Assembly: GCA_001599935.1 (NCBI GenBank)
Contig: BCIJ01000036.1
Coordinates: forward strand, 62,001 to 126,000
DNA: 64,000 bases
Origin: Holtermannia corniformis
Taxonomy: Eukaryota > Basidiomycota > Tremellomycetes > Holtermanniales
Direction of reading: 5' to 3'
Below are positions 8,580-42,700 of the stretch, piece by piece. Position 1 is the first letter of the stretch, and the number at the start of each line of letters is the position of its first letter. The notes below the pieces were generated by a model that did not search any database, was not told the origin of the DNA, and was given only the letters and a program-made list of their open reading frames with translations. The position numbers and the translations under genes were made by a program.

Positions 8580-11500
8580 TCAGTCACGCTTCCAGTCCTT
8601 GTCGTCCGAGCTATCCGTCTCGTCCGAGTCGATCCCAGTCGCCGACGACGAGTCGATCTCGATCAAGTGTCCCGTCGCTGGCGAACCAGTGTCAGCCGCC
8701 ACGATCGCTGTCGCCATCCTGCCCGAGCGCGTCATGCCAACGATCGCCATGTCAGTGACGAGGCGCTCGACTGCGCGCGTGAGCGCCGTACGGGCCGGGT
8801 CCCGGCGCAGAGACGGAGACGTACTGGACGCGAGGTGCTTCGAGTACGAGTGGTTGAATTTGCGCATCTGAACGAGCAGCGGGCGGATGCGCGAGATCAA
8901 GACCTCTTTCTGGTCGTCGTCGGCGTACTGAATGGCGCGTTCTGTGGCGTCAGCTGGCGCAGGCGCAGTCGTGCGAGCACTCACGGACGACGTAATCTAC
9001 TTTGGTCAGCTCGCTTCAGCTCGCGCGGCAGTCGACTCACTCGCATAGCTGTCGCGCATGTACAGCGCCAGCGTACTCGTCCCTTCATTGTGGTCGGTCA
9101 TGATCTCGGCAATCAGTTCGCGGCGGTCGGCTGTTGCGGCAAACTGGATCGCCTTTTCGCACACATTCGAGGCAAACTTGTGGCAAGACACTGAAAAAGT
9201 CAGTCGCGCGTGCAAGCCTGCTTCCGACTGACTCTGGAGCATGTGCCCTTTGAGGCATTCAACCACGACGATGCGGTCTTCTGGTTCGCCGCACTTGATG
9301 AGATTTTGGACGACATAGTCTGCCGCGTCAGCTTGGTCGTTGATCACGGGAAACTCACTCCCAAACTGGTCTTGCATCAGGAGCTTGACATGCTTGTTGA
9401 GCTCGACGACGAGCTGGCGCGTTTGCGCAGGTTTGAGGTGTTCGAACGCGCGCTGGAGCACGCGGCAACCGTAGGGGTGGGCCGAGAGCTCAAAGATCTG
9501 ACCGCTAAGCGCGCGCACGACGAACATGAGCTTGGTCGGGTCGATGCGCTCGAACATGCGCTGGATGACGTGATTGCAGTTTGAGCTCTTGACGCACTCG
9601 ACGACGTGGCCGTCGAGCTCGGAGATGAGCGCGGTTTGCTGCTCGGCGGCAACATGCTCCAGGGCCTTTTGCACCACCTGGATAACGAGAAGCGGGGGAT
9701 GATAGCAAGAGGGGCTTGTCAGCTTCTGCCTTTTGCGATTGCTTTACGCACCCTGCAGCCGTACATCTGCATCGACAGCGAGAGCACATGGCCCTCCATC
9801 GACTTGGCGAGCATCGCTTTCTGGCGCTGATTGCCGTACTCGAACAGACGCTGAATCACCTGGGGAACACTGGTCAGCATCTGACGAGCGTAGGGCACGC
9901 CCACTGACGTAGTTGCCAAAGACATCGGTCATCAGTTGCAGCGCGCTGCCTTCGATTTCGTCAAACACGAGCTGCTTTTCTTCGGTCGCAGCCGCTTCGA
10001 GGCGCGTCTGGATGAAGCGAGAGCCGTATTGGTCGCCGGCAAACTCGACAACGTGACCTTTGATTTCCTACAGGGCGTCAGCCGTGCGTCTCGAGGTGCT
10101 GCTCGGGTTTAGAGATGGTCGATCGTTCAGTCCTTCACGCACTCGACTAGGTGTACGAGATTGCTCAGGTGTGCAAACACCGCAAGTGCCCTCCTATCTC
10201 GAGTATAACGAAAGCATGTCGCCGGGGACACGGCGCTGGCCAAGGCTCCCATTGCGCACATGGCGGACCGCAGAAGAGAGAACGACCCCGCGAAACGGTG
10301 CCGGAGGCACAGTGCGTCCATCGGCCGGGATTTACAGCGATGCGTGCCGCTGTACCACCGAGCGCTCAACGCACAAAGCTCAGTATACCGTCGGCACCAC
10401 GAGCAATAAAGGGCACATCGGACCACACATTCTGCCAGACATACACATGCAGAGCAACAAACTCACCAGCAAACTGGCATACACGCCGCGCTTGACCCTA
10501 AACTCTTCCAAGAACGCACTGCGCGGGACGGCGGGCGCCAAGTCGAGCAAACGATAGCTGGGTTCGTGCTGTTCACGTTCACGCAGCTTCTTACTCGTGG
10601 GTCCGTACGTGCGCTTGGCGGGAAAACGGGGGCCTCTGGCCGGCAGAGGTGGGGCCGGAGGCGGTAGCGGCAGCGGGTGGTATTCGGGCATCGGGTAGAC
10701 TTGGTAGTCTGCGTACATGGCGGGCGGGAGCGGCGTCAAGGGCGGTGGGTAGGGCGACATGGGACCCATCATGTGGGGTAAGGGCTGCGGGTGCAGGCGC
10801 GGAGTGAGCAATTGCGAGTAGGGCGATTTCTGAGGTGCGTCAGCAGACTGTTGATGTCTGATGGCGCTATCGAGCGAAGCGCATTGTCGTTCCCGAGCCA
10901 GCAACACCAACATCCGTCATGCAGGTGTCGTCGTACTTACAGAAACTGCGAACTGCGTTCGCAGTGATGGCACACGAAGGGCTGGAGCAAACCGGCAGCA
11001 AGAGACATTCAACGGTCGTGCGGGCCGCATGGACGCAGTGCCCACCGGGAGCAGTTGACACGCAGCGATCGGGCTCGGCTCTGTACAAATCGCCGTGTGC
11101 ATGCCTGTATCATCTGATATGGCTGTTCCCCAAGTACGGATAGACCGCTGATCTATCGAAGCGCATCAGGTAGACAACGCTAGTGACAGATGGTTCCTCT
11201 CCACATTGCAAGGCCGACACACATCGGGCGCCGACGAGCCGGCAGGGAAGTCAAACAGCGCATGATCCTCGGAGAGACGTGGTGTACGGATACTGCCTGT
11301 GTCGCAGTGCTTCAGACTCAAGCAAAACGGTTCAGCACCGAGATGCTGGTGCGCTGCGACGACGACTGAAGCATTGAGTCGACCCGAGCACAGAGTCTAC
11401 GGCGCTCGACGCAAGCACAAGAGAAAGCGCAAGGCTCAGACGGGACGGAACGCAGCCGAACAGACAAGAGTCACTCACCGCGCCGTCACGATCGAGGTCA

Positions 11501-18080: not shown

Positions 18081-20035
18081 ATGCTCGTGTCCTACCTCAC
18101 CACCACGGCCGCCTTTGCCCTCACAGCCGCCGGGAGCGGTCTCTTCGGCGAGGGCTCCAAGCCAGACAGCAAGATTGCTCGCAACGTCCTCGAAGGCAAG
18201 GCCGAGGGCTACTGCAGCGTGCGTCGCCCATGTCCCCATCGGTGTCAATGTGCTGACTATGTGACAGCCTTCCGGACCGATAGAGTCGACCCACTGCGCC
18301 CACGAACAGATAGAAGCACTCAACAAGGACCTCTTCCCCGCCTTGCACGACCTCGTCCAGTTCCCCTTCTTCCGTCACTACAAGGTCGACCTGTTCCGAG
18401 AATGCCCGTTCTGGTACGAGAATGGGTTCTGCATGAACCGGGACTGCGGCGTCGAAGCTGCCGACGAGGTAGGTGCAAGATATCCGGTCGCGCCGTGCTC
18501 ACACTGCGTAGTCTGATATCCCAGAGAAATGGCGAGCGCAGGCGCTCAGTAAAGTCCGGCAGTCGTCCACACCGGGGGTGAGTGCTGTCCGCATGACGCA
18601 GTCGGATCTGACGCCTAACAGGACGCCGCAAGCTGCTACTACCGAGAGCAAGACTTTTGCTACATTGAAGACGATGCTACAGACGGTGCGTGATCCTCAA
18701 TGTCACCTCGCTGACCGCCACAGACGGACAATACATAGACCTCCTGCTCAACCCGGAACGCTTTACAGGCTACGCCGGCGAATCAGCAAACCATGTCTGG
18801 CGAGCGATCTACGAGGAAAACTGCTTTGGGTTGAGCGAGGCTTCACTCGAGGCTAGCAAAGTCGGCTCGGCTGTGACTCCCACGGCCGCGTTTGGCAGGC
18901 TCAGCGAGGGCTTTGGGACCGAAATGATTCGACCCGGGCTCGTGCCGGACGACAGCGACATGTGTGAAGAAAAGAGGGTGTACTACCGGGTCATCTCGGG
19001 TGGGTGATGGCAAAGGATGGTGTCATGCTGACGAAATAGGATTGCACGCGTCCATCTCGATCCACATTTGCCACGAATACCTCGACCAGTCGACCGGTGA
19101 ATGGGTGCGTCCACATCAGCGCTCAATGCTTTACTGACTCGTGCAGTCACCCAACCTCCCCTGCTTCATCACTCGACTGGCATCCCACCCAGAGCGCTTG
19201 TCCAACGTCTACTTCAACGCCGTCCTGCTCCTTCGCGCCGTCGCCCGCGCCGCACCCTATCTCGAGGCATACGATATCGGCGTCGCACCGTACCCGTGCG
19301 ACCGTTCCGCTCTTCTCGATGACGACGCCAAAGCCAAGTCGACTCTCAACACGGTGCTGGACCTCGCCAGCGGTGATCAAGTTGGCAAAGGCTTTGACGA
19401 GGCGGCTCTTTTCAGCGGCAAGGACGCGGTAGTGAGTGCTGTAACGGTCTGAAACAAGCCACGCTGACCTCGCCAGGTGCTGAAAGAGCAGTTCAAGTCG
19501 CACTTCCGCAACGTGTCACGCATCATGGACTGCGTGGGTTGCGACAAGTGCCGGCTCTGGGGCAAGCTGCAGGTCTCTGGGATCGGCACAGCGATGAAGA
19601 TCCTGTTTGAACTGGATGACAAGGCGTTGGAGTGAGTGCGTCGATGTACCGCGATCGAAACTGACCCTCAAAGTCCCAAGATCAACCCCAACCTGTTGCA
19701 ACGATCCGAGGTCGTCGCCTTGTTCAACACTCTGCACCGCGTCAGCGAGAGCCTAGACGCCGTCGAGACGTTCCGGAGAATGTACGCCGAGACGCAAGCC
19801 AGCGAAGCTCGGAAACCGATCATTGTGCGTCTACGCGTCAAACTACCAGCACTGACGAAACCAGCCTCAGCCCGCACGGATAGACCCGCCCAGCCAGAAT
19901 CGAGCATTGCAGATATTGCAGCAAGCTGTCGCCGTCGCTTTCAGCGCTGTCGGAGCGTTGCGGCGGTTATGTCGAGGTTGCTTCGAGGTATGTTGGCGGA
20001 GAGTCAGCGCCGTCACATCGAAGTCAGAGCTATGA
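18081..20035 (+). CDS. ERO1: ERO1, endoplasmic reticulum oxidoreductin
   Basis: FAD-dependent thiol oxidase of the ER lumen that re-oxidises protein disulfide isomerase and passes electrons to oxygen. The start [20 protein letters not shown] is a signal-peptide-like hydrophobic segment. Then follow [17 protein letters not shown], a shuttle-cysteine region ([10 protein letters not shown]), [38 protein letters not shown] and the active-site block [19 protein letters not shown] with the CxxCxxC centre. Eight to ten introns of 40-50 nt are needed; family conservation fixes most joins. The protein is about 515 residues, normal for fungal ERO1, ending in a variable tail (VTSKSEL). Whether the last exon is extended by another intron is uncertain. 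Confidence 0.95.
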
Positions 20036-20089
20036 TGCATCACGTCTTTCGCGACAGTCCATCACTGGAATGCCAGCTGATCGCCGAAA

Positions 20090-20365
20090 GGACTCTCCAC
20101 TTTGAGATCCAGACACTGCCTCGTCTGGACTTCATGATAGCAGCTGCGCTTGAAGTCTGTACAGTCTGCCCTGCTCTTCGACCGCAGATACCCCTGATAT
20201 GCGGTGACGGCTACTTGGAGTGCGTTCTACACCGCCTCCGACTTGCCGGAGAAGACCAGCGCAAAGTCGCCAGCCAAGCGCCTCGGTCCTCGCAAAGTTG
20301 CTCAAGTCGCGCTTGACGCCCTTGTAGAGCCCAGTGATGAGGTCGGTATCAGCAGAGGATGACAT
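20090..20365 (-). pseudogene. S-family pseudogene, copy D
   Basis: The frame opens with MSSSADTDLITGLYKGVKRD, matching the N terminus of copy E. Similarity then continues in other frames: GDFALVFSGKSEAV, an in-frame TAG, and NALQVAVTAYQGYLRS in the second frame, then GSVWISKWRVL in a third. These match the core, the second helix and the terminal part of copies E and F in order. At least two frame changes and one stop mean it is not translatable as a family member. It is adjacent to intact copy E, in the same direction, so it probably arose by tandem duplication. Confidence 0.55.
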
Positions 20366-20620: not shown

Positions 20621-20938
20621 TCAGTACAAGTGGTCTCTATTGCGGTGCGTGTTCATTACCTCCCGCCGGAGACGTGACTCCATTTGCGTCCTCAAGAAGA
20701 CACTGCCATGATAATCGGCCGTGTCGGCTTGACCTGTACTTGCCAAGTACTCGATGTATCCCTTTACGGTCGCGTTGATGACAGATGCTCGAGTTGGCGC
20801 GTCCTTGTACGAGAATGAGCGAGCAAAGTCTTCGAGCCACTGACGTCGAACAGACTCGAGCTCCTCAACCGAGCTGACAGAACGCTGGGCGCCGTTCACG
20901 ACGCCTTGGATCAACTCTGAGTCAGCCTGGGTGGACAT
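20621..20938 (-). CDS. Small S-family protein, copy E
   Basis: Intact single-exon gene for 105 residues: MSTQADSELIQGVVNGAQRS, then the core ESVRRQWLEDFARSFSYKD, SVINATVKGYIEYLAST and GSVFLRTQMESRLRREV, with a charged tail. It and copy F best display the family consensus: V/A-R-R/K-x-W-L-x-x-F/L near the middle and L-x-x-Q-M-E-S-R/K-L at the end. Predicted all-helical and soluble; no targeting signal. Function unknown. ATG 20936-20938. Confidence 0.6.
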   Translation of the reverse strand: MSTQADSELIQGVVNGAQRSVSSVEELESVRRQWLEDFARSFSYKDAPTRASVINATVKGYIEYLASTGQADTADYHGSVFLRTQMESRLRREVMNTHRNRDHLY

Positions 20939-22102: not shown

Positions 22103-23534
22103 TCAATTTCCTATCGTTCCTCTGACCGCACGGAGCTCTCGATCGAAGCGCTGCCGGTCATTTTTGCGCAAAGACGCCAACACTTCGGTCTTCGCCTTGA
22201 GCATGCGATTCTCGCTTGTCAGCTGGTCGCGAACTTGCCTGATCGCAGCCAGTTCATCTGTAACTCGCTGCAGCTGAAGTGCTAGCAGCTAGCTGGTTTC
22301 TTGACTCTGTCGACTCTTGGCATGAGCGACAGTCGTCTGGCGCGGCATGTTGACTCATTGCGGATTCGGGAGTGATGCCTTCGCGTTGGCAAGCCGGCCA
22401 GCATCCTGATCAAACGCGTCTTCATTGGACTGTCTGCGCATTGAGAGTTGATCCGGTCGATGGTGCGTGTGATCTCTGGATGCTGTACTTGATTGATTCT
22501 GGCCGTCGGCAGTGCTTCGGACGCTTCGGACTCTCCCGTTGTCGAGTCGGTCTTGTGCGACGGGACTTCGTCCGCATAGCGGGTGCGCGCTACGTCTTGA
22601 TCAGACCATCCGGGCACTTTCGGCTGCGGCGAGGCTGACCACGGACCTGTGGCCACTCGACCAAAGTAGACGTGACATCCTCCCGCCGTGCGGCCGGCGA
22701 AACCCGGTCGCAATTAGAGTCGTGGGACGGACGGTACGACGAGTAGCTTTGGAGCCGCGCTTCGGCGTGTCAACTCTCGCTTGGGGATCAGCGGGAGTGA
22801 CGGATGACTCACTGTCAAACGTATCTCTCAGCTCCAGGCATTTGGCTGACAGGGTCTCGAGGCAGTCAACAGCTGGACGCTTGTAAGATTGTCCTAGAGT
22901 CCTTGTGAGCGTGTTGATGCGCGCGAGCAAAGACCGACCGATCTCACGCGTGTGCGGCAGGAGGTCGTAGCTCTCGAATCTTGCTGCTGGCTCGGCTGGC
23001 TTGGCCTTGCTGCGCTAATATCTCTGGTGAGCCTATAACAACTCGGCCGAATAGCTACGCACCGCGATAGGAAGAACCGCATTCTTCGCTGCAGCAAGTG
23101 ATTTTTTCTTCGCCATGTCCGATTCGGTGTGAGTGAAGGAGCTTGCTCTGTAAGATGCACACCTGACAGCCTGCTGGCTCGTGCTAGCCGTGTTTTTGTC
23201 TGTGAAGCACATCTTGCCTAACTCTCTGCACTGTTCGCACGCCTTGTCGCCCTGGTTGTGACACCCCCGCCCGGCGTCATGGCTGCCTGAGGACCATGCT
23301 CAGCCCTCATCAAGCCTACGCGGCGAATAACGCACCTCGTAGAGGAGCCACTCGTTCCAACTGTTACCTGCCCATTTGTCTGGCCTGGCTTGCTGTCTAG
23401 AGAGGTAAATTTCTTTCTCCTCATCGGTGAGCTGATACAGTATGAGCTGTTACATGCGGTCAGATCGCTTTGTTCGCAGCTGCACAGTGACATGCATTTT
23501 TCAGCGCTTTGCGAGCTGTTGAGCCCTTGGTCAT
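22103..23534 (-). pseudogene. Z-family cysteine-cluster/coiled-coil gene, copy 1 (one-base frame break)
   Basis: Layout matches the other Z genes: a tiny first exon (ATG 23532-23534), an exon with YQLTDEEKEIYLSRQQ and NSWNEWLLYE, an intron, then AAMTPGG and the cluster CHNQGDKACEQCRELGKMCF plus TDK. The cluster lies one frame off AAMTPGG. Restoring one base in the G-rich stretch near 23265 would give the usual W-x-H-N, so this is either a recent lesion or a sequence error. Downstream the frame is open again: AKKKSLAAAKN (basic), YDLLPHTREIGRSLLARINT, and a terminal coiled coil with LALQLQRVTDELAAIRQVRD and LTSENRMLKAKTEVLASLRK. The second CxxC of the cluster is not evident. Function unknown. 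Confidence 0.45.
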
Positions 23535-23561
23535 GGCTCTAACACCACTCGTCTCGTTGCC

Positions 23562-23590
23562 TCGTTGTCGTTGTCGTTGTCGTTGTCGTC
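23562..23590. repeat. TCGTTG microsatellite
   Basis: About five tandem copies of the hexamer TCGTTG between Z copy 1 and the 3' end of copy 2. Simple repeat; no role inferred. Confidence 0.8.
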
Positions 23591-23723
23591 ATGAACGTCA
23601 TCCCAACCTGTCGAGATCTTGAGTGGGGTTCACGGGTCTGCGTAGACGATCAGGTGTATGGACGTCCTGTCTAAGCCCAAGCTACCGTCGGCAGTGCGTC
23701 CGGGCAGCCATGCTATCACCGTT

Positions 23724-24738
23724 TCATACGTCTACGAGGTCGTCTATCGTTTCACCTATGAACGTGTCGCACTTCCTACGCAGCCTTGACAATTTGCTCT
23801 CCGCCGCCTCGCACCGCTCTGTCGACCGTGCCAAGGCTTCCTCCAGTTGTCGATTCTCCAACTCCAGCTGACGAAGCTTTCCTTGCAGCTCTTGGGCTGG
23901 CTTGGCGAGGACTTGGGTGCTTTCTTCGATTCTCTGGAGCCTGTCATTCAGCTGTTCGTGCTGGACGAGCGCTTTGTGCAGCTGCTGAGCTATCATGCCC
24001 TCGTCTGTCGTAATGGCGGATAGAGCGGGTGTCTCGGTACAGTGTTGAGCAACTGCAGGCGATGGCGACGGTGATTTGGGAGGCGTGACACCACCTGGCG
24101 CACACGCCCAGGAGGGTCTGGTATCCGCAACGGCATCTGAGATACTGTGAGGCTAGAGAGTGTGGGGCGGTCAGAAGACGTACCGTTCGAGCCGGAGGTC
24201 TTGGAACGCTTTGTGGCAAGCGCAGCGTCCTCATCGGCTTCTCGTTTGCACCCCGTGGGTTCTTCTCTGTGTTGTACAGGCAATCCCCGAAGATATCGCT
24301 CTTGCTTCTCCTGGCGAGGTTCTGCCTTGTCATGATGAGAGCAGCATCCACCATGCGAAGCGCATGAAGGGTACTTCCAGGAGTGCTTGAGCTTGTACCG
24401 GTCGGTGAAGCAACCCTTGCCCAATGATGCACACTCTGTGCACGCCTGATCGTCCTTGTTGTGATGCCATTTGCCCGGATCTCGCATCATCGCTGCCTGA
24501 CCACGCGGTGACGATGAGCTTGATTCCATAACAACGGGACTGACGGACTTGCGTGCATACCCATTCGTGCCATTTCTGCGTGGAGTAATGGGCTGGTCGG
24601 CGGTGATGATACTGGATCTTTTCGTCCTCGTTGAGTTCTTCACGCTTCAAAGGCGTGACCTGTAACCATCATCAGCTCACGCCGGGGTTGACTATGTCGC
24701 AGTGAGATGCGTACCGAGTTCAAATTGAACATGGTCAT
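23724..24738 (-). CDS. Z-family cysteine-cluster/coiled-coil protein, copy 2
   Basis: Four exons, about 285 residues. Exon 1 is tiny (MTMFNLNS). Exon 2 has VTPLKREELNEDEKIQYHHR and KWHEWVCTQ. Exon 3 opens AAMMRDPGKWHHNKDDQACT, then CTECASLGKGCFTD, SWKYPSCASHGGCCSH and a basic stretch (KREADEDAALATKRSKT) that looks like a nuclear localisation signal. Exon 4 is Ser/Pro-rich and then a long coiled coil (LQRIEESTQVLAK, LQGKLRQLELENRQLEEALA). Cysteine spacing C-x2-C-x6-C followed by another C-x-x-x-x-C group recalls Zn2Cys6 domains, but the basic DNA-contact residues between cysteines 2 and 3 are missing. Introns 1 and 2 fall at the same places as in copies 3, 5 and 6. Function unknown; a nuclear dimeric factor is the inference. 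Confidence 0.7.
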
Positions 24739-25195
24739 GATTGCTGGTTGCGTGGGGAGATCAGCTCCAGCTTGATCGCTCGTCTATGACTCACGGGCGA
24801 GTATAGCCGCACTCCACTTGGTGTCAACTTTGTCGTCGTGCACAGATGGCTCCACACGGCGCTCGTCGTTCCTGAGCTGTGCAAACTCAGCTTGCAGAGC
24901 AGCAGCAACGCCAAGCAAACGTAGAGTTTGTACACTTGTACTGCGGAAAACTCGTTACAAATCGGGGAGACGATAGCATGCACTCTGTCTGGCTTCGGGT
25001 GTGACACTTCAGCTCAATTTCTGCCAGTGCAAGGGGGCTCGGCAGCTAACTCTTCATCTCGAGTCACGCCTGGCGCTCACATGTCCCATGAGCTCCTGGC
25101 ACTTGTCACGCAATATGGCCTCTCGTGTTGGAATACGCCACTCAGCCAGCCATCCCTTCGGCAAGCCGGCATGACGCCGCATCTGGCGAACACTA

Positions 25196-25295
25196 CATCC
25201 GGCGCGGATGTAGCCAAGACAAGTCTGGCGCGCAGAGGATGTAGTCAAGGCGCCGAGGATGCGACGCATCCGGCGAGGATACTGCATCCGGCGAG
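25196..25295. repeat. Imperfect CATCCGGCG repeats and palindrome
   Basis: The word CATCCGGCG occurs at about 25196, 25267 and 25285, the last two as GCATCCGGCGAG direct repeats. The first forms the perfect palindrome CATCCGGCGCGGATG. It lies in the 636-bp gap between Z copies 2 and 3, where no gene is supported. It may be promoter-associated for copy 2 or a decayed minisatellite. Confidence 0.4.
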
Positions 25296-25375
25296 ACATC
25301 AGGGACGTCAGAGTTGTAGGCGAAAGCCTACAAAGAAGCGCCGTAGCGAGCGAGATGCATCACGGTTCTTCCCCA

Positions 25376-26317
25376 TCATCTAACATCTCGCCCTTCGGCC
25401 TCCCCGCGTCGCTTTGTCTCCTTTTCAAGCTTGCCCCGCAAGAGGTCGACTTCCTTCTCGAGGTCTGCCTTGTCCCGGGCGAGCATGTTGACATGAACAT
25501 GTAGCAAGTCAAAGTTGCTTTTGACATCACTTAATTTGTCGATGCCACCGCGCAACTGAGCTGCCATGCGGTCGAATAGCATCGGTGCTACCTCTGAATA
25601 TCGCTCCTTGTGTGCCGCGAAGGTGACTGTGACATTTTGGGTCGTCGTAGAGCCTGAAGGTAGTCCTATGGGTCGTGTTCGTCAGCGTTGACGTGCACCA
25701 GTCACTGCCTGCAAGGCGTACCGGCTTGCTCTCGTCTCTTACGGCGCTTTGCAGAGCGCGTGAGGACGTCCTCGGCCACGCGTTTGCCTTTTGGGGTTCC
25801 AATTGACGGCCCAGCGGTCTCAGCCGTTGGCTGTTGGATGTTCGGTTGCTGAACCTTGGGCTGCAAGACTTTCGGCTGCGAGACCTGCATGGGATGGTGT
25901 CCATCCCTTCGCGTATGAGAGCAGATTCCTGCGTGCGTGGCGCAAGCTGGGAACCCGACCCAGCTACGGAGCTTCTTCCAATCGGTAAAGCACTTCTCGC
26001 CGGCGACGTCGCACTGCAGGCAAGCATCGTCGCCCTTGTTGTGGTACCACCTCTCAGGGTCTCTCAGCATGGCTGCCTGGAGAATCGCAGGCGTCAGCAG
26101 GCGTCATCGCTCGGCATGGCTTGCCACAGACCTGGATGCCGACCCATTCAAGCCACCTCTCAGGAGTGCATTTCGCAGGTCTGCGATTCTCATACTGGTC
26201 GAGTTCATCTTTGCTGAGATCTTCGAGTTTGACAGGAGTAACCTACGCGGTACAAGTCAGCCTAAATCTTGTAACGTTGAGCATGGCGCTCACTGAGTCC
26301 ACCCTGAGCAGCGGCAT
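25376..26317 (-). CDS. Z-family cysteine-cluster/coiled-coil protein, copy 3
   Basis: Exon 1 is MPLLRVDS (ATG 26315-26317). Exon 2 has VTPVKLEDLSKDELDQYENR and ERWLEWVGIQ. Exon 3 starts AAMLRDPERWYHNKGDDACL, continues CLQCDVAGEKCFTDWKKL, FPACATHAGICSH, a QPKVLQPKVQQPNIQQP repeat and a basic segment KRVAEDVLTRSAKRRKRR (nuclear signal-like). Exon 4 holds VTVTFAAHKERYSE and a coiled coil (NMLARDKADLEKEVDLLRGK, LEKETKRR). About 265 residues. It is closest to copy 2 in sequence and gene structure; all joins are short GT-AG introns. Function unknown. Confidence 0.7.
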
Positions 26318-26590
26318 GTTCGCAAAAGCTCTTGGTTGCTCGAGGCTGAAAGCCTTGCGTGGTCTCGTGCGGTACCTGCGCAGCTCTTGACTTGGCGCCA
26401 ACCATGTTGAGATCTGAAACATCTTGCACGGACGGCCGCTCAGTCCAGCTTCGAGCTAGCTCGTGCAAGGTCGAACAGAGTGTAGGCCAGCTGCGTAGCA
26501 TCACCTTGGGCACGCGTTCAACGATGCATGGGGATACACGAGTATGCGGACGCCTGTATACCATCCAAAGCATATCTCTGAGGGACGGCA

Positions 26591-27494
26591 TTAGCTTGGC
26601 AATGAGCATGGTGATGGTTGACTGACCTTGCCCAGTGCGATGATCGATCGCCAGGCGGGGATGGCAGCCGTTTCACACCACGTCCGCGACATCCCGGGTA
26701 GCCTGAACGATGCGCTGAATTCGAAGCTTCTCTTGACGCAGGGCCGTCTTAAGCTCAAGACCTCCCGCGCGAGCTCAGCATTCAGTTCTTCCAGCTTGCC
26801 TTGCTCCGGTTCCATGACGTGGGTCCGCCCAACTAGGGGCAGCGCGTTCGCCTGGCTCGTGCAGGCTGCTTTGAAGGGCAGTGGTGCAGCGGGAGCCGAA
26901 GCAGACTGAATGGCCGACGCTTGGCTTGCCTCTGCCGGAAGGTCCGACGAGTCGGTGCAAGCCGGCAGTGTCTGCGCCGACGACTTTGCGCGCTTTACTG
27001 GGCTCGAGACGGGGCACACGGCCTTGCGCTTCAAAGACACCTCCCCGTCCTCGTCACCATATAGCGAGTCGGGCGGAGTATCAACTGCAATCAATCCCTC
27101 CGTCTCCGACGGCACATGGCCCTGCGAGGGAGTATCCTGTGATACCAGACATTTGGGCGGCCACCACCAGCACTTGAGTGAGTCATCGCTACAAGCGGCG
27201 CATCTGCGATCGCGCATGTCCCCGCCGTCGGTGTTGGTGAAGCACAGCCTGTCGGAAGCGAAGCACTGTAGGCACCTCGCGTAGTCTGGGTGGGGCTGGC
27301 AGTGCTGAGGGTCCCTCCGCATCGCGATCTGTGTGATCAGCGATGCTCCTTGTGAATCGAAGACTTGCCTCGCGCAAAACCCAGTCGCCTCAGCGGGTCG
27401 GATGGCGGGGATACACATGCGGACGGTCACGGCAGCGTTTCCAGTATGTCTGACGTTCCTCGACCGAGAGGGCCGCAAACTGAGCAGCGGGTAC
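26591..27494 (-). CDS. Z-family cysteine-cluster protein, copy 4 (start and C terminus uncertain)
   Basis: The exon after the first intron begins at 27494 with VPAAQFAALSVEERQTYW; the short first exon was not found, so the start is open. After intron 2 comes IAMRRDPQHCQPHPDYARCL, LQCFASDRLCFTNTDGG, RRCAACSDDSLKCWWWPPKC (a full second C-x2-C group) and a basic block LKRKAVCPVSSPVKRAKS. The coiled coil QGKLEELNAELARE then leaves its frame: in the next frame the helix continues as LELKTALRQEKLRIQRIVQ and stops at 26673. The annotated frame instead runs on to 26591 with an unhelical sequence. A one-base change near 26755 is therefore suspected. Function unknown. Confidence 0.55.
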
Positions 27495-27774
27495 CTGTTC
27501 TTTTGTCAGTGAAGTGGGGTGGAAGTGTACTCTAAAGCGCCTTCATCGAGCGGGGTGAAGCTTGGCGTTCGTGCAAGCGATCGTGGGGCTGAGACCAATT
27601 GCAATATCAGCCAAGCGTGTAGTATTTACATTTCTATATACAATCGCTTTCTATATGACCAGCCCTCGTTATCCACGTCTCCCCCCGGGTCAAGCTGCCC
27701 GCCAATCACTGCCTATGTACAACATTTGTCGTCAGAGGGTCGCAGGCACGTCGTTTTGCCCTTGACGCTTCGTG

Positions 27775-29207
27775 TCATGCCAGACTGCGGAGCTCAGCCT
27801 CTAGTGCAGACCGACGTGCTTTCCTCTTTTCACGATCAGCCTCCTCTGCTGCTTCCAACCTCAGCACAAGCGCCTTATTTTTCTCTTCAAGCTCGGTCTG
27901 ACGAGCGAGCTGGGTCTTGAGCTGCAGCCCAAGTCGGGCTATCTCCAGCTTGGCAGTCATGACAGCTTCGTCACGCGCGGAGAGCTCCTTAGCGTGTCTT
28001 GCGGCGTCCGCGCTTCGCCAGAATTCCAGCCGATTTGCGTGGGAGATGATTTGCTTGAGACTGGTCGCATACTCGTCTGTGGCTGGTGCGAGGTCCTGGG
28101 TCCCCTCACCGTCCAGTGCCGCTGTCGTATCCGGCTGTGCATTGGGAGTCGAATTTGCAGGAGGAATCGGAAGCGACGTAGGAGCGTTCCCCTGCGCAGC
28201 AGGCGCAGGCATCTGTCCAGAAGATGGCGTAGCTCGCACTTTCGCGATCGTGTCATGAGCAAGAGGGCCAACGCTCGCGCTTGCAACTGATTTGTCGGTT
28301 TCGCAGGGGGCGGTGGATAGCTGCTCGCTGGGCTGGTTGGTAGAGCTCGGAACACCCTTTGGGCTGGCGGCGGCTGGGGTAGCCGTCTCCTCGGGCATGC
28401 CAGTGGGAGCAGACGGGCTCCCAGCAGTCTTCGGGGCCTGCAGCGGCCGAGCGGGTGTGGCTGGAGTAGCCGGAGTCCGAGCAGGTTGCTCATCCGCGAC
28501 CGTTTCCTTTGGTGCGCCACTACCGCTAGAGTCCTTGCTGGTCGCTGGTGGTTGTGAGCTGCGTTGAAGTGTGAGAGTATTCAGTCGACTTACTGGTCGT
28601 AGCCGTCTTCAGTCGCTTTGCAGGGCTCGCCGTGGGGTCGGGAGTAGCGCGCTTGCCCGGGACGCCAGTCTTTTCCTTGTTGGAAGCCTCAGTCTGGGCA
28701 ACGCCTTCATCCAACTCGTCGTCGTCGTCGTCGTCTTCACTGTCCGACGCAGACGTCGAGCCTGTGTGCACGCTGCTTTGGCGAGGTCTCGCTACAGCGG
28801 GAGGCTTGGACCCGGATTGGTAGTTTGAGCATTTGCCCTTGGTACAAAAGGCGCACTTTGACTTGCGCCCGGATTTCGTGTCGGTGAAGCAGAGTTTGTT
28901 ACGAGCCGTGCACTCATCACACCGACGGGAACTGGGCTTCCATCGCTCCGGGTCCCTCTGCATGGCAATCTGCCTGCCTTCAGAAACGAAAGTCTGCGTT
29001 TGCAACGAATCGTACCTCACGCAGTATCACGCGGGACCATGTCGAGCTCCCTCTTCTGCCGGGCGGAGGATCAACTACACGCGCATGAAACGTTGTCTTT
29101 TCCTCCTCAGAGAGCTCGTCGTATTGCAGTATAGTTATCTGTGTTTCTAAGCAAAAATTTGTTGCTCTACCGAATTGTGCTTACCCCATTAATCTCTTTC
29201 GGCTGCA
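27775..29207 (-). CDS. Z-family cysteine-cluster/coiled-coil protein, copy 5
   Basis: Exon 1 MQPKEING (ATG 29205-29207). Exon 2 has ITILQYDELSEEEKTTFHAR. Exon 3 has IAMQRDPERWKPSSRRCDEC, TARNKLCFTDTKSGRKSKC and AFCTKGKCSNYQ, i.e. C-x2-C-x6-C-x11-C-x2-C-x4-C, the fullest cluster of the set. Then come an Asp/Glu run (SEDDDDDDELDEG) and a nuclear-signal-like PAKRLKTATT. Exon 4 is a long Pro/Thr/Ala linker and a coiled coil (LEIARLGLQLKTQLARQTEL, EEKNKALVLRLEAAEEADRE). About 430 residues. It uses an internal acceptor (ACCACCAG) after KRLKTATT to keep the frame. Function unknown; best member for structural work. Confidence 0.72.
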
Positions 29208-29678
29208 TGCTGTCGATCGCAGCGGTTCCTGGGTGCATGCATAAGATGCTGACGGCAGCACGATGAACAGTGAGAGCTACTTGCAAGCCTCCGTCGCGTC
29301 TTTTGGCATTCTTAGCAGTTTCGCCCAAATCGCCCAAAAGCCGACTTCGTGCCATCTCGCTCTGATCGTCAGCTTCGACGGCGGCTCAGCAAGCTCAAAC
29401 GTTCACCCTGCATCCTCCCCTTCTTCCTCCATTGTCTGCGCTCCGTGTCAGTCGGCTAAGAGTCCTCTTTATGGCCTGTTGGAGCCACGTCCTGCGTCAT
29501 GCATCACGTGTCTGCCGCACGGCCGTCGACGATGTAACGTGCGGTCAGCGTTTCTCGGGCAATTCGAGTTTGCATAACCTCCTCGCAAGGTCGAATGCCT
29601 AGGATCAACTACACATCACAATGTATATGCACCAAGCCGATCATACACAGTTCCTTGCCAATCGCGTGCCGATCACCG

Positions 29679-31011
29679 CTAACAGCTCCCGCCCGGCGAC
29701 CAAGCCTTGCCATCGGTCCGCCCGGCCTCCGTGAGCAAATTCCCAATCTCATGAACCTTGGCAAGCGCCTCGCGCAACCGCCCCCTCTCCTTGTCCGATT
29801 CGCTGGACTGAAGCGCCAGCACCACGTTCTCGCTCTTGAGCGCCGTATATTGCGCTTTGAGGGTGTCGAGCTGCTCTTTCAACTCCTCGTTGAGCTCCTC
29901 GACCTCGCAGATCCGCGCCTTGCTCTGGGCGTGAGCTTCCTGCTCAGCCTTGAACGCGTCGAACGCCGTCGTCCAACCGGCCGACAGACTGGAGTTGTCG
30001 TCTTTGAGTTGCTCGATCAAGGCAAGGGGCTTGACATCGCCTCGGAGATGCTCGAGTACGGCGTGATCATCCGCGAGCTGCTGATCCGTATCAGACTGGC
30101 CCTCGCCCGAGGTGTCTTGGGCAGCAGCGATGGCGTTTTCAAGCTCGACGATGCGAGCGTCGCGCAAGGCCAGTCGCTCGACGTGACGCTCTACCGCCCG
30201 CTCGAAGTCTCTGATACGCGCCTTGCACTCAGCGAGCTCTTGACGCTCGGCATCGCTGCTGTCGATACCAGACTGGTAGCCCTGAGCAAACGCGTTGACG
30301 ATTTTGGCGTGCTGGAGAGGCTGGGTGCTCGAGTTGGCGCTGGTGGAAGCAGCAGTCGATGCTGGGGGAAAGCCGTTGTCGCCGATGGTGGTGGACGGGC
30401 TGGGGGCGATCGGTGGGACCGAGTTTTTTGAACCTGTGCGGTCTGATGTGGCTGGCGCTGTGGGTGTCATCAGAACGTCTTCAGATCGATCAACGCGTTG
30501 CTCACCCTCATCCAGCATCTCGACGCCATCAGTCTCCAGTTTGACCTTCTTGCTCGCGCTCGCAACAGCATTCTCGTTGGCGTTGGAACGCTTGCTGACC
30601 GTCATGCTCCACGTGCCATAACTATTCGTCAAGCTGTTCGAGCAGTGACCCGTGTTGCGGCAATGCAGGCACTTGTTCGGATTACGAGCCAGCTTGTCGG
30701 TAAAGCACCGCCAGCCGCGGTTGGTGCACTCGGCACAACTGTTAGGCTTCTCATTCCTTTGATACCGCTCTGGCTGGCGTTCCCATGCGAGCTGGTATTC
30801 TCATCAGCTCTCCATCGGTAAGCCCGGCGATCTTACTCACCTCTCGCATAACCCACGCACTCGACTTGCGACTTGCGAGACCGTTCGGCTGGACTCTGTT
30901 CGGCACCTTGGCGTCGTAGTACTCGCGCTCGGACGGTGTGAGTACCTCGAGAGTGAGCTGGGTGATGCGTGAGCGTCTCGCGACAGCTTCCTCACCGCGT
31001 ACCTCCTGCAT
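29679..31011 (-). CDS. Z-family cysteine-cluster/coiled-coil protein, copy 6
   Basis: Exon 1 is MQE (ATG 31009-31011). Exon 2 has LTLEVLTPSEREYYDAKVPN and SSAWVMRE. Exon 3 has LAWERQPERYQRNEKPNSCA, ECTNRGWRCFTDKLARNPNK and CLHCRNTGHCSN: C-x2-C-x6-C-x10-C-x2-C-x5-C. Then KRSNANENAVASASKKVKLE (nuclear-signal-like), a Thr/Pro/Ser linker, and two coiled-coil stretches (IRDFERAVERHVERLALRDA and EVEELNEELKEQLDTLKAQY) up to the C terminus WSPGGSC. About 410 residues. It is the first gene in the direction of transcription and the most divergent in the RDP region. Function unknown. Confidence 0.7.
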
Positions 31012-31991: not shown

Positions 31992-32237
31992 TTATTTGTT
32001 CAAGCCGAGCTTGCTCTCCATCTGCAACCTGAAGAGAGCTGATCCAGTGCGTCCGTGCTGGCTCTTATACTCTTTTATGAACTCGTTGACGGCTGAACGA
32101 GCGGCGGAAGTGCCCTTGTCTCCGTACTCCCTCTCAAGGTCGTTCAGCCACGTCTTGCGAGCGTCGCTGGTCATCTCATTCGGGCCGATGTTCGAGATGC
32201 CAGACTTGAGCGGCGAGAGGTCGATTGACTCTGACAT
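31992..32237 (-). CDS. Small S-family protein, copy F
   Basis: An 81-residue protein, the shortest member: MSESIDLSPLKSGISNIG, core SDARKTWLNDLEREYGDKG, SAVNEFIKEYKSQHGRTG, end SALFRLQMESKLGLNK. The ATG at 32235-32237 is used; a longer frame starts at TTG. The L-Q-M-E-S-K-L ending is nearly identical to the T-Q-M-E-S-R-L of copy E, 11 kb away. Intact, soluble-looking, function unknown. Confidence 0.6.
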   Translation of the reverse strand: MSESIDLSPLKSGISNIGPNEMTSDARKTWLNDLEREYGDKGTSAARSAVNEFIKEYKSQHGRTGSALFRLQMESKLGLNK

Positions 32238-32826: not shown

Positions 32827-35048
32827 ATGCTCTCCCTTTGGGCCGCGTTCTCGCCGCTCGAGCGGCGCAACATTGCCATTTATGCGCTCGGCATCATGGT
32901 GAGTCAACCTGATGTGGCACTATATATCTTTGCCTGCTGACCCTCTGGCAGTGCTACAAGTTCGGCCTCGAGTATTTCAACGGCTCATTCATCACTCAGG
33001 CCAACGAACGCTTTTCCGCCTCGGAGCGGTACACCAAGATCGCCATGCTCACTGGGTTCAACAGCGCAATGCAATGCGTTGGCTCGATCCTGATCGCGCC
33101 CTTGATCAAGCGCTTCCCTACGAGATCGGTGCTGGCATCCGCTGTCCTTGTCTTTGGTGTCATCTCGACTGTTCCATTGATCGCGGATGCGGCAACCGGC
33201 GGTAAGCTCCGCTTCAAGACGGCAGACAACAAGACGCACTATGGATCGTGGGACCCCAATGGGTGAGTGAGGCTGGTGCGGCGCAATCACACGGGCTGAT
33301 TGCGAAAGTCTCTTTCCGATCTACATCATCTCGGGAATCGCCTACGTGTGTGGTACAATCTGTCGCAATACCACGCCTGCTGACAGAGCCAGGGTATGGT
33401 AGAGCTGATCCGCCGTGTCATCCCAAGGGACATCGTCGGCGGCGATGTGCAAAAGGTGCGTTAACCACGGCTCAAGCAAAGCTCACTTCTCAATAGTTAC
33501 GTCGAATGGATGCTATCGTTCACGTCTTGTACGAGATCGCTGGCACTACGGGTGCCTTCACCTCGTAAGCGAATCTGCTGTCATGCCAGGTGGCTTGGCT
33601 GAAGCGTGCAGGCCAACACTTGTCGGCAAATTCGGCTATGTGCGTGCTCGCTTTCGGGCGATTATTTCCTGACTCTCCGCAGAACTACTCTGCCCTCTTC
33701 TCGCCGCTTTTGTTCGCCCTCGCTGCCCTTGTCTGGCGCTTCGTCTCGGACGTCGAGACCCTTCCTGAAGGCGCCACTGCATCCAACCTGGCGGAGCTCG
33801 AGCGCGAGACCAAGCGCGGCTACCTGCACTCGATCTGGGTTGGCTTCCGTTCGTTTGGCAAGGCAACCTACTACGGGGCCATGCTCGTATGCAGTCACCG
33901 AAAGTACGCCTGGCTCATTACTGGCTATTCGATGGCGCTGTATGGTCACCGCTACCTCGAGGTGAGTGCATCGGTGTCATCTTGAAAAAGCGCTGACTCG
34001 ACCAGAACGGCCTCGCGCCCATCTTTGCCAAGCAAGTCCTCGGTGTCTCGTCCTGGTCACAGATCATTGTCGGCGGCTCCAAGTAAGCCTGGTGCTAGGG
34101 ATTCCGACTGCCGCTGACAATGCAAGCTTTGGCGAGCTGCTCGGAGCGCTCAGTGTTCTCCTTCTCACCAACAAGATCCAAACGCCGATCCCATGGCTTC
34201 GTCTCGACGCTCTGGCCTTGAATATGTAGGTTCTCGTCGGCGGGCCTTGAAATTGCATCTAACGGCCACAGCGTCTGGATCCTCCCCTTCATCGCCGTCA
34301 CCCGTGGCAGCGTCAACGGCGCCTGGTACGTGCCCTCGATGCGCTTGACCCGCCCCGCGCTGACGAGGTTCCAGGAAGATCGCCGCTTGCTTCATACCCA
34401 TCTCGTACGGCTGGGCAGCTGGTGATGTCTCTCTCGCTGCATACATCCAGAGCACGCTCGCCAAGATGGAAAACGTCGACCCGGACGTCTCAGCCCTCGG
34501 CGCGGTAATGGCTTTCGTGCGTCGCTTGCTTTCCCGTTCTCACAACGCTGAGACCCATGCGCGCAGCTTTACGTGACCTACATTGTCACCTATGCTGTCC
34601 TCAGCTCCGTCCTCGGCAAGTGGGTCGACAAGCAGCTTGCCGGCATCAAGGGCAACGACGCCATTGCTGCTGCCGCACGCAACGCGCTCAAATACGTTGG
34701 GTGCGTATGCTGCAACCTGCGCCTGTTCTGTGCTGACTTGCACAGCGGCGTACAATTCACCATCCTCTGCGCCGTCGTCCTGCTTAGCACCCTCATCCCG
34801 CGAGGTGCACTTTCGTTCAACCCCAAGCTCATCGACGGCCACAACAGTCTCGAAGGTCCGTCGCACACCAAAGGTCGTTCTGCTCGCTGATGCAGGGTGT
34901 AGATGACGAGAAGGCGGTCGGTAAAGACGCGTTTGCAAAACCCCAGGAGAGCCCTAGTGCCTACCCGGAGAAGATCCTCGACGAGTCGACTTCGCCCGAC
35001 TACCCCGTCTACGTCAACGGGGCTCAAGTACCGACAGCTGACAAATAG
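32827..35048 (+). CDS. Major facilitator superfamily transporter
   Basis: Membrane carrier of about 550 residues built from a dozen exons. It begins MLSLWAAFSPLERRNIAIYA, then FGLEYFNGSFITQANERF, SAMQCVGSILIAPLIKRFPT, a membrane pair around VLASAVLVFGVISTVPLIAD, the loop VIPRDIVGGDVQKLRRMDAI and VLYEIAGTTGAFTS. Later hydrophobic helices include ALFSPLLFALAALVWRFV, VGGSNFGELLGALSVLLL and VQFTILCAVVLLSTLIPRGA. The tail is hydrophilic (NGAQVPTADK). R-x-x-R between helices and the G-rich helix SNFGELLG fit the superfamily. Substrate unknown; it neighbours a Zn2Cys6 factor, a DapA-type enzyme and the oxoprolinase, so import of a related acid or amide is plausible. ATG 32827. Confidence 0.82.
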
Positions 35049-39776: not shown

Positions 39777-42700
39777 ATGACTTTGATGAAGATGCCAACT
39801 GCGGGAATCCGGATTGCCATCGGTCAGTTGATAGCGTCTTGTGTTGTTCACGAGCTGATAGCGTTGTAGATCGTGGAGGGACGTGAGTGATGGAGATTCG
39901 TTGAGAGGTTCGTGCTGAGCGTTACCAGCTTTACGGATGTCTCGGCCACCTTTCCAGACCGCCCACCACTCATCCTCAAGGTTCTGTCGGTGGACCCGAG
40001 CTACCCCGATGCACCTACCGAAGCCATTCGGCGAGTGCTGGAGCATGCACACGGCAAGGTCATCCCACGAGGGACCCCACTTGACGTGTCGTCCGTCCAA
40101 GTGATCCGCATGGGCACGACAGTCGCCACAAATGCTTTGCTGGAGCGGAAAGGCGAGCGCACAGCTCTACTGGTCACCAAGGGCTTCAAGGTGAGTGCAT
40201 CTGATGAGCTGTATCTGCCAGGTGCTGACTCACAATAGGACATCCTCCGCATCGGCAACCAATCTCGACCCAACCTGTTCGACCTGCAAGTCCGGAGACC
40301 GGGCATGCTGTACGAGGAGGTCGTCGAAGTCGACGAACGCGTGGTCCTTGCCGACGCCTACCAAGTGGACGACGTCGAGATCATCAAGGGTGTATCGGGG
40401 GAGAAGCTGCAAGTACTACGCAAGCCAGACCTCACCGAGGTTCGCAAAGACCTCGAGCGGTTACACGCCAAGGGGCTGCGAGCGCTCTCGGTCGCCTTTA
40501 TGCACTCGTATACCTTCCACGAGCACGAAGAGGCTGTAGGCGAGCTGGCTTTGGAAGTTGGCTTCTCGCATGTGTCACTGTGAGTGGATATTCTGCTGCT
40601 TTGACTCAAACTGATGATTGCAGGTCGAGCAAGTTGTCGTCAATGATCCGCATTGTCTCAAGAGGGCTCTCGGCCACTGCAGATGCCTATCTGACCCCTG
40701 AGCTCAAACGCTATCTGGCCGGTTTCAAAAAGAGCTTTGCAAACCTGCGGCCGGGCATGATCCAGTTCATGCAGTCAGATGGTGGTTGTAAGTCTCACGA
40801 CCTGTGTCAACCGGCACTAACACCCAACAGTGGTCAATGCCGAGGGCTTCTCCGGCCTGCGTGCTGTTCTCTCGGGACCAGCGGGTGGTGTCGTCGGCTA
40901 TGCTCGGACATGCTATGACGACGAACAGAAGGTAGCCGTCATCGGCTTCGACATGGGCGGTACTTCCACCGACGTATCGCGCTACGATGGCGAGTTTGAG
41001 CATGTTACCGAGACAACAACGTCCGGTGTGACGATCCAGGCGGCGCAGTTTGACATCAACACTGTCGCTGCTGGAGGTGGAGTCAGTGCTTGGCTTGGAA
41101 GATGGCCTGAACTGACACTCCTCAGTCGATCCTCAAGTGGGAGAACGGCTTGCTCAAGGTCGGCCCAGAGTCGGCTGGCGCGCTTCCCGGTCCTGCATGC
41201 TACCGTCGGGGTGGTCCGTTGGCCGTCACCGATGCCAATGTCTTCCTCGGTCGCCTTCTTCCTTCCCACTTGTGAGTAACTTCAGTACATGGGCATCAAC
41301 TGACAATTACAGCCCAAAGATCTTCGGCCCTAACGAAGACCAATCCCTGGATGTCGACATTGTGCGCCAAAAGTTCCACGAGCTTGCCGCGCAGATCTCT
41401 GAAGAGACTGGCGTCGTCAAGACACCAGAGTCAATCGCCCTCGGCTTCCTCACGGTCGCCACAGAAGCCATGTGCAACCCGATTCGCACCCTGTCTGAAG
41501 CGCGCGGTCACGAAACATCAAGTCACTGGCTGGCTGTGTTCGGCGGGGCTGGCGGTCAATCAGGCTGCGATGTCGCTGCGACTCTCGCCATCTCGCGTGT
41601 GGTGATTCACAAGTGCTCGGCCATCCTGTCGGCGTTCGGTATCGCCAAAGCCGACGTCGTTCACGAATCTCAAGCGGCATATTCGGGCAACTTCACGGCC
41701 GAATCGCGCTCGGCAATTCGCGAGCGCCTCGTTGCTCTTAGCAAGACGTCCGAGGGCGAGCTGCTCTCCCAAGGTCACCCCGAGGCTTCCCTATCGTCCT
41801 CGCTGTACTGCAACATGCGCTACGAGGGCGCCGATGCAATGCTCATGGTCCGCGAGCCAGAGGACGGCGATTTTGCTAGTGCATTCAAAGCCAAGCACCA
41901 TCAAGAGTTTGGTTTCTCCCTCGATAATCGCGCTGTCGTCGTTGACGACTTGCGCGCTCGAGTGGTAGCGGCTGGCGAGGACGCCGCCGAGCTAGCTTCT
42001 CGCAAACCACTCTCGCGCCAGATCGACGATGCGCGTGCTGCGCCAAAGAAGGCTACGCCGATCGAGACGACCAAGGTCTGCTTCGAGTCTACCGGTTGGA
42101 TTGATGCTGGTGTCTACAAGCTGGGCAAACTGGCACCGTCGACCATCATCAAAGGTCCGGCCATGATCATCGATGAGACGCAGACCATCATGGTCGTCCC
42201 GACGGCGGAAGCCGTTGTTCTCGAGGAGCATGTCATCATCGACATTGCGAAGAAGGACGAGAGGATCGATGCAAAGCTCGAAGTCGACCCAGTCCTCGTA
42301 CGTTGACGCGGCAAATCGGTTGTCTCGCACTGACGGTGTGCAGCTCAGTGTGTTTGGACACCGCTTCATGGCCGTGGCCGACCAGATGGGGCGTGTCTTG
42401 CAGAAGACGTAAGTTTCACCGTGACAGCCAACCACTCTTGCTCACCCACGCCAGCTCCGTATCCGTCAACATCAAGGAGCGCCTCGACTTTTCCTGCGCC
42501 TTGTTCTCTGCCGAAGGTGCGCTGGAACGTTCGCCGTCCTCACCATGCTAACGGCCACAGGCAACCTGGTCGCCAATGCCCCACATGTTCCCGCAATGCT
42601 CGGCAGCATGGGCATGGCCGTACAATGGCAGCACCAGCACTGGAAAGACAAGCTTGTTGACGGCGATATCCTGATCTCAAACCACCCGGTCGCTGGTGGC

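Follow-up and report, generated by a model that had tools for sequence, protein, structure and literature searches.

A tandem array of cysteine-cluster genes in Holtermannia corniformis and its likeness to fungal Zn2Cys6 domains

We analysed a stretch of 64,000 nt from one contig of the yeast-like fungus Holtermannia corniformis (the window), which carries on its minus strand, at about 22.1-31.0 kb, six related copies (A to F), all in one direction. A six-frame scan of the whole window for C-x2-C-x5-8-C-F-[TS]-[DN] gave six matches, all in the array and all on the minus strand. ERO1 is a neighbouring gene. This agrees with an earlier note on this DNA as to the number and direction of the copies; complete gene models were obtained for four of them, with predicted GT-AG introns of about 50 nt, ranging from 46 to 56 nt, at common positions. 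The gene structures are predictions from splice signals and phase: copy B (23724..24738; exons 24738-24715, 24659-24549, 24496-24184 and 24136-23724; 286 aa), copy C (25376..26317; exons 26317-26294, 26242-26132, 26076-25722 and 25665-25376; 259 aa), copy E (27775..29208; exons 29208-29185, 29138-29016, 28969-28594 and 28544-27775; 430 aa) and copy F (29679..31011; exons 31011-30841 and 30791-29679; 427 aa). B, C and E agree in the place and phase of introns 1, 2 and 3 and in having an exon 1 of eight codons, and F retains the intron-2 position alone; the tiny first exon and the matching introns 1 and 2 noted earlier are thus found in B, C and E.

The remaining two copies are probably decayed. 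For D (26594..27510) we conclude this from an in-frame TGA at 27392-27390 inside its exon-2-like part, a stop four codons past the ATG where exon 1 normally lies, and an intron 2 whose donor is GC. For A (22103..23560, with an exon-2-like part at about 23443-23337) the reasons are a frame change upstream of the cluster and the presence, in the aligned stretch, of only one further cysteine after CFTD, which leaves the second half of the cluster incomplete; the bound 22103 is the coordinate given in the earlier note, and the downstream part of A lies outside the present model. Six intact genes, as first proposed, are rejected on these grounds. A seventh and distant member, G, lies on the same contig about 58 kb from F (C36:150649). 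Its link to the family comes from search values that are weak (E 0.02-0.04) and from its intron places and motifs, and the intron/exon plan of B, C and E is partly common to F and G.

From N to C terminus, the common plan reads L-x3-E-x3-[YF], RDPxxW, C-x2-C-x6-C-F-T-D, C-x2-[C/H]-x3-6-C, KR...KRxK and coiled coil. Each of its elements had been proposed before, in a stricter form than is found here. The L-x3-E-x3-Y segment is present in five copies, E having F in place of Y. The sequence M-x-R-D-P-x-x-W is exact only in B, C and E; its place is taken by WERQPERY in F and MRRDPQHC in D, and it is lost in A. CFTD, said to be invariant or nearly so, occurs in five of the six array copies, with CFTN in D and CFFP in G. 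The clusters lie at 24442-24341 (B), 26022-25921 (C), 27274-27170 (D), 28921-28829 (E) and 30737-30642 (F), and the C-x2-C-x6-CFTD of A at 23239-23198. The further cysteines expected after CFTD are replaced in part in B and C, where the second pair is C-x2-H and the arrangement C-x2-H-x3-C. Six metal-type ligands are nevertheless retained in B-G, with His at the place of Cys5 in B and C; histidine for cysteine is a tolerated change at zinc sites.

The nuclear-signal-like patch rich in K and R was recovered as a two-part motif, [KR][KR]-x8-14-[KR][KR]-x-[KR], in all six domains counted (B-G, copy A being left out). It lies at 24247-24200 (B), 25785-25732 (C), 27031-26984 (D), 28654-28607 (E) and 30593-30540 (F). 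The motif was defined after the copies had been seen, and taken for copy C alone it is present in 15% of shuffled tails. A C-terminal coiled coil is clearly predicted for B, C and F, where, of 500 shuffles each, 6, 1 and 2 matched the heptad power. For E, D and G the corresponding numbers are 90, 46 and 63 of 500, which is not significant; of the members tested (B-G), the coil earlier ascribed to the whole family is clear in three.

Over the cluster segment, each of the 21 pairs that A-G can form is more similar than its shuffles (z 2.8 to 28.6); similarity is high between the neighbours B-C, D-E and A-B and weakest for C-G and D-G. B, C, E and F are 33-52% identical over the aligned segment and have pairwise only 0 to 2 five-residue words in common. 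Codon positions were counted in five of the 15 pairs possible in the window; in four of them, B-C and E-F included, it is the third position that differs most, and on these counts we set aside as unsupported the earlier suggestion of a family under diversification. We read the array as a row of ancient duplicates, of which four seem intact and two are probably decayed. That it is instead a relic, with decay under way in the majority of copies and little function today in the frames that survive, is very unlikely: the frame change in A and, in D, the in-frame stop and the want of an open exon 1 where one would normally lie are what such decay would produce, whereas B, C, E and F hold complete frames over two to four exons despite their divergence, and third positions are the most different in B-C and E-F.

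Within the sensitivity of our searches, the family and its motif pattern are distributed on this one contig. No convincing eighth member emerged when the same genome was searched with C, E, F and G. Weak genome matches outside this contig fell on C13, C15, C5 and C27, and on inspection no cluster was seen in the C13 match. The protein search depends on shared five-residue words. With the five-copy alignment it scored 7991 candidates, none at E <= 1, and with residues 10-110 of copy E 28 candidates, none at E <= 10; these negatives say little, since B, C, E and F themselves share so few words that sister genes are barely findable. As a control, SSE1 of the same genome was closest, among the matches listed, to Tremellomycetes (Kwoniella at 74-77% identity, Papiliotrema laurentii and Cryptotrichosporon argae at 77%, and others of the class), so the class is represented in the protein database; none of the 120 matches listed was near-identical. 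Sequence searches of the PDB returned coiled-coil or short chance matches only, and a description of the family was not found in the literature titles and starts of abstracts listed, which is no proof of absence. Orphan status lies beyond the sensitivity of these searches. For the same reason the earlier "apparently undescribed" is not shown. A strong match to a described domain, named beforehand as the finding that would tell against it, was sought in Pfam and NCBIfam, and no copy had one at cut-off.

We next consider the Zn2Cys6 domain (PF00172), which the clusters resemble in their N-terminal place and in the order C-x2-C-x6-C ... C-x2-C. The rule CX2CX6CX5-16CX2CX6-8C, as stated in the excerpt of PMC10141177, describes only one of the six full clusters, that of D, which is itself probably decayed; the last spacer, 6-8 residues in that rule, is 3-5 in the other five. 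Against PF00172, G aligned over positions 1-37 of 39 (E 0.2, 12.2 bits, cut-off 21), while the other six domains (A-F) gave no match. None of the 42 PF00172 matches listed for the same genome falls in the window. Thirty of these have loci (L019-L048), and 12 of the 30 contain the full six-cysteine pattern in one frame; 11 went into alignment A5, whereas L044, with a second half that falls out of register, was omitted.

An HMM of these 11 domains, whose canonical members score 36-51 bits, gave at most 13.6 bits for the copies (F 13.6, G 12.4, E 10.2). Shuffles with the cysteines fixed reached the observed score in 4 (G), 6 (F) and 13 (E) of 300 cases, compared with 51 for A, 51 for B, 42 for D and 264 for C. 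E, F and G thus still resemble the Zn2Cys6 domains of their own genome beyond cysteine spacing, and A-D do not clearly do so; the earlier comparison, which rested on spacing, is right that the spacing is nearly that of Zn2Cys6 and falls short for these three. When profiles were compared (copy A being left out of these comparisons and of alignments A2 and A6), none of 150 random fills attained the observed score, and 8 of 150 shuffles of columns within intervals did so. An independently evolved zinc-binding domain, similar in spacing by convergence, would account for the missing Pfam and NCBIfam matches, for C-x2-H-x3-C in B and C, for the large part of the profile score that spacing supplies, and for A-D not standing clearly above shuffles. 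We consider it improbable, as E, F and G beat most cysteine-fixed shuffles and helices start at both C-x2-C pairs in the predicted model of F.

In that model (AlphaFold2) residues 1-50 fall into blocks with a pLDDT of 79-87, and a helix is predicted to begin inside each C-x2-C (22-27 and 44-49), in the register of Gal4. This may be a further likeness to Zn2Cys6, in which two C-x2-C helices are related by a pseudo-twofold with two zincs. The domain occupies about residues 55-110 of the F gene model. A predicted extra helix and strand ahead of the cluster and a long linker in F set it apart from Zn2Cys6, as does the replacement of Cys5 by His in B and C. The pLDDT is below 50 across nearly all of 54-161, and long helices are predicted at 159-362 (about 30323-29712). 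Modelling left G out, and the model of copy E is poor (pLDDT 54). With these models of E and F, Foldseek found no solved structure matching the domain: E gave one meaningless match, and F nothing below E 1 in the best 50 of 96 rows, many of them long helical proteins.

The basic residues with which Zn2Cys6 domains contact DNA are mostly absent, as the earlier note had observed: between Cys2 and Cys3, A-G have a mean of 1.6 K/R of 6 (7 domains), against 4.0 in all 12 domains of the same genome (Mann-Whitney p 0.00045). A search of the spliced products of B, C, E and F gave no match at E <= 0.1 to Fungal_trans, the middle homology domain that is common but not universal in Zn2Cys6 proteins. Both results weigh against a reading as rapidly evolving Zn2Cys6 transcription factors, still recognising specific DNA as dimers with half-site spacing set by the coiled coil, as do the five of six full clusters that break the rule excerpted from PMC10141177. 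The near-canonical cysteine order, the N-terminal position, the residual likeness of E, F and G and the canonical spacing of D speak for such factors. According to the excerpt of PMC4832277, a dimerisation element usually sits within a few residues of the cluster and is 15-25 long; in F, about 105 low-confidence residues are predicted to precede about 200 residues of helices, a coil both long and distant. On balance we think this reading possible and rather unlikely.

We infer, with a little better than even confidence, a local tandem family of nuclear oligomers in which the N-terminal domain is related to the fungal Zn2Cys6 cluster and has diverged from it. We think this likelier than an entirely new signature because E, F and G resemble Zn2Cys6 beyond spacing and G aligns along PF00172 over almost its full length, though at a score well under the cut-off. 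In each protein the zinc ligands would lie in C-x2-C-x6-C ... C-x2-[C/H]-x3-6-C, with the added N-terminal helix and strand (the strand at the end of RDPxxW) near the CFTD strand. The two-part basic signal would take the protein into the nucleus, and the C-terminal coiled coil would let it pair or oligomerise, a long disordered linker lying between cluster and coil; the basic motif and the predicted coils of B, C and F fit a nuclear oligomer, and to that extent the nuclear dimerising factor first suggested. Since most basic recognition residues are lost, the cluster would more likely contact a protein partner, or DNA in some other way, than read DNA as Gal4 does. The present set would have arisen as genes duplicated along the array and A and D later decayed.

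A bolder version, which we hold to be doubtful, is a family of zinc-binding nuclear adaptors born in this tremellomycete lineage, in which a Zn2Cys6 cluster or a look-alike became a protein-contact module. It would have gained the helix-strand cap, lost the DNA-reading face and one cysteine-spacing rule, and been carried on long coiled-coil arms before multiplying into a local array. If the main reading is right, the commonest fungal DNA-binding cluster would have lost its DNA-reading residues with its metal ligands kept, even with His for Cys; the passage from reading DNA to some other role would become directly testable inside one array, and family profiles would be known to overlook such clusters. 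A merely diverged transcription-factor family would represent gene-family turnover of an ordinary kind.

Among other known domains, the C-S-H of B and C brings to mind the C-x-H of the copper fist (PF00649). Six cut segments gave one match to it (E 0.013). G matched at E 0.033 as 66 aa and 1.6 as 310 aa, with 14.2 bits against a cut-off of 25, and the other six domains did not match; G covers 14 of 39 model positions, and its first C-x2-C-x6-C lies outside the match. A parallel in architecture may be Aspergillus PacX, described in the excerpt of PMC4832277 as having a zinc binuclear cluster and a long coiled coil far off in sequence. There the order is reversed, with an N-terminal coiled coil and a C-terminal cluster that conforms to the consensus, and the homologues reported are from Leotiomyceta (ascomycetes). 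According to the same excerpt, PacX is a nuclear protein with a predicted two-part basic signal, and its authors raise the possibility of protein contact through the coiled coil.

A six-frame scan of the window for C-x2-C-x5-8-C-F-[TS]-[DN] returned six matches, all on the minus strand and all inside the array, which upholds the six same-direction copies of the earlier note (A to F, from low to high coordinate, about 22.1–31.0 kb). The array lies on the minus strand of contig BCIJ01000036.1 (C36), of which the window covers 62001–126000, in an assembly of 20.2 Mb and 55 contigs, which served as our own-genome dataset. Among the best named matches listed for the SSE1 frame of this genome were Kwoniella species (74–77% identity) and Papiliotrema laurentii and Cryptotrichosporon argae (77%), which places the host in the Tremellomycetes.

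Splice sites were picked by eye for fit to frame and alignment. Copies B, C and E share a four-exon plan with an exon 1 of 8 codons and three GT-AG introns of 46–56 nt, the first two in phase 0 and the third in phase 1; F has a sole intron of 49 nt, at position 2. The predicted products have 286 (B), 259 (C), 430 (E) and 427 (F) residues. Copy D carries an in-frame TGA at 27392–27390 within its exon-2-like part, an ATG at the usual exon-1 place with a stop four codons later, and a GC donor for intron 2; a very short extra intron could in principle remove the D stop. In A the frame changes immediately upstream of the cluster, and a single further cysteine lies within the aligned stretch. Because the models of B, C, E and F are complete and A and D bear these lesions, four of the six proposed genes look intact and two are probably decayed.

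Small single-frame proteins flank the array on its own strand, one of 105 aa (20624–20938) and, on the opposite flank, one of 81 aa (31995–32237). The two are paralogous (31% identity, BLASTP E 1e-8 in a single comparison); a genome search with the 81-aa protein found no other relative at E ≤ 10, and also missed the 105-aa paralogue. Neighbours include PUF/NOP9-type repeats (9009–9743, minus), an ERO1 end (19636–20313, plus) and a possible MFS transporter (32913–33266, plus), the latter two from matches below cut-off, and hydantoinase/oxoprolinase A and B (41116–43766, plus). A possible transposon remnant (53398–54120, minus) gave weak Tc3-type transposase helix-turn-helix matches below cut-off (E 0.00045 and 0.0037).

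Querying the genome with E, F, G and C recovered the array copies and a single further place with the array plan, the distant member G (about C36:150.65–151.06 kb), on the array's strand and about 58 kb beyond F. Its search values are weak (E 0.044 with query E, 0.038 with query F, 0.018 for G against F). G has L-S-x-x-E, H-P-D-R-Y replacing RDPxxW, all six cysteines and a two-part basic motif; it also has a phase 0 intron at position 2 and, at the position of intron 1, an acceptor site. Outside C36 there were four other matches, all weak, one of which was read and showed no cluster; the member counts are lower bounds. Two canonical Zn2Cys6 matches lie outside the window within about 6 kb of G, at C36:144649–144765 (minus) and C36:152079–152180 (plus), 2 among 42 listed for the whole genome.

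Pairwise z scores were mostly highest between neighbours (B–C 28.6, D–E 13.8, A–B 12.7, E–F 11.9), with A–C at 12.7 and C–F at 11.6 among non-neighbours, yet just 5.2 for the neighbours C and D. Likeness between neighbours fits tandem duplication. G is most similar to F (z 9.9), then to E (z 8.3). The earlier note saw a family under diversification, which the codons do not support: differences at positions 1/2/3 were 24/20/33 of 62 for B–C, 23/22/32 of 52 for E–F, 16/14/19 of 43 for D–E and 8/6/10 of 24 for A–C, with A–B the exception (18/15/17 of 37). With third positions the most variable in all but one of the five counted pairs, the pattern suggests constraint on the cluster rather than positive selection.

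The arrangement C-x2-C-x6-C-[x11-15]-C-x2-[C/H]-x3-6-C is kept in B to G, with histidine as fifth ligand in B and C, and identity between copies falls as low as 28% over aligned stretches. Two points argue for metal binding by the putative cluster: its ligands are kept amid near-total change elsewhere, and the non-cysteine fifth ligand is histidine. D alone passes the Zn2Cys6 cysteine-spacing rule given in PMC10141177. Basic residues from the second to the third cysteine average 1.6 in A–G versus 4.0 in 12 own-genome Zn2Cys6 domains.

Pfam named no family at its cut-offs for the copies; G aligned with positions 1–37 of 39 of the Zn2Cys6 family PF00172 at E 0.2. Profile–profile comparison gave a score of 19.6 (probability 58%), which none of 100 free column shuffles (cysteines fixed) and none of 150 random fills reached. 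Within-interval column shuffles reached it in 8 of 150 cases, so much of the score is cysteine spacing. Sequence by sequence, cysteine-fixed shuffles matched the observed score in 4 (G), 6 (F), 13 (E), 42 (D), 51 (A), 51 (B) and 264 (C) of 300. There is moderate evidence, from sequence comparison, that the family descended from a Zn2Cys6 cluster, with C probably the most remote.

AlphaFold2 was given the F frame and five aligned copies, the first two residues preceding the modelled splice site. The first 50 residues were modelled in blocks of pLDDT 79–87: helix 2–7 directly ahead of the RDPxxW-like segment, strand 12–15 starting at the last aromatic of that segment, helix 22–27 starting within the first C-x2-C, strand 31–34 formed by CFTD, and helix 44–49 starting within the second C-x2-C. 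Gal4 has two helices at places matching 22–27 and 44–49. On this model, RDPxxW and CFTD would be conserved because they supply a cap and two strands. The E domain modelled alone reached a pLDDT of 54 and was set aside. Foldseek found no partner for the E model or, among the matches listed, for the F model, whose search was swamped by long helices.

The KR patch proposed earlier recurs as [KR][KR]-x8-14-[KR][KR]-x-[KR] in all six copies tested (B–G), a motif that was defined once the copies had been read and that shuffled tails contain at a rate of 0.4% to 15%. Its position in B, C and E is 10–16 nt upstream of intron 3. The proposed C-terminal coiled coil gained support in B, C and F, where few shuffles reached the observed heptad power (6, 1 and 2 of 500) and weak matches to coiled-coil families, all below cut-off, agree, but not for E (90 of 500), D (46) or G (63). 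By eye only, the E C-terminus reads as a charged helix.

Most likely, the family's proteins would oligomerise in the nucleus, with zinc-stabilised heads carried on long helical arms. Because most recognition residues are gone, we would expect the head to make contact with protein, or with DNA in a novel manner. PacX, a precedent described in PMC4832277, joins a zinc cluster to a long coiled coil that lies far from it and may make protein contacts, but there the order of cluster and coiled coil is the reverse of that in the array proteins.
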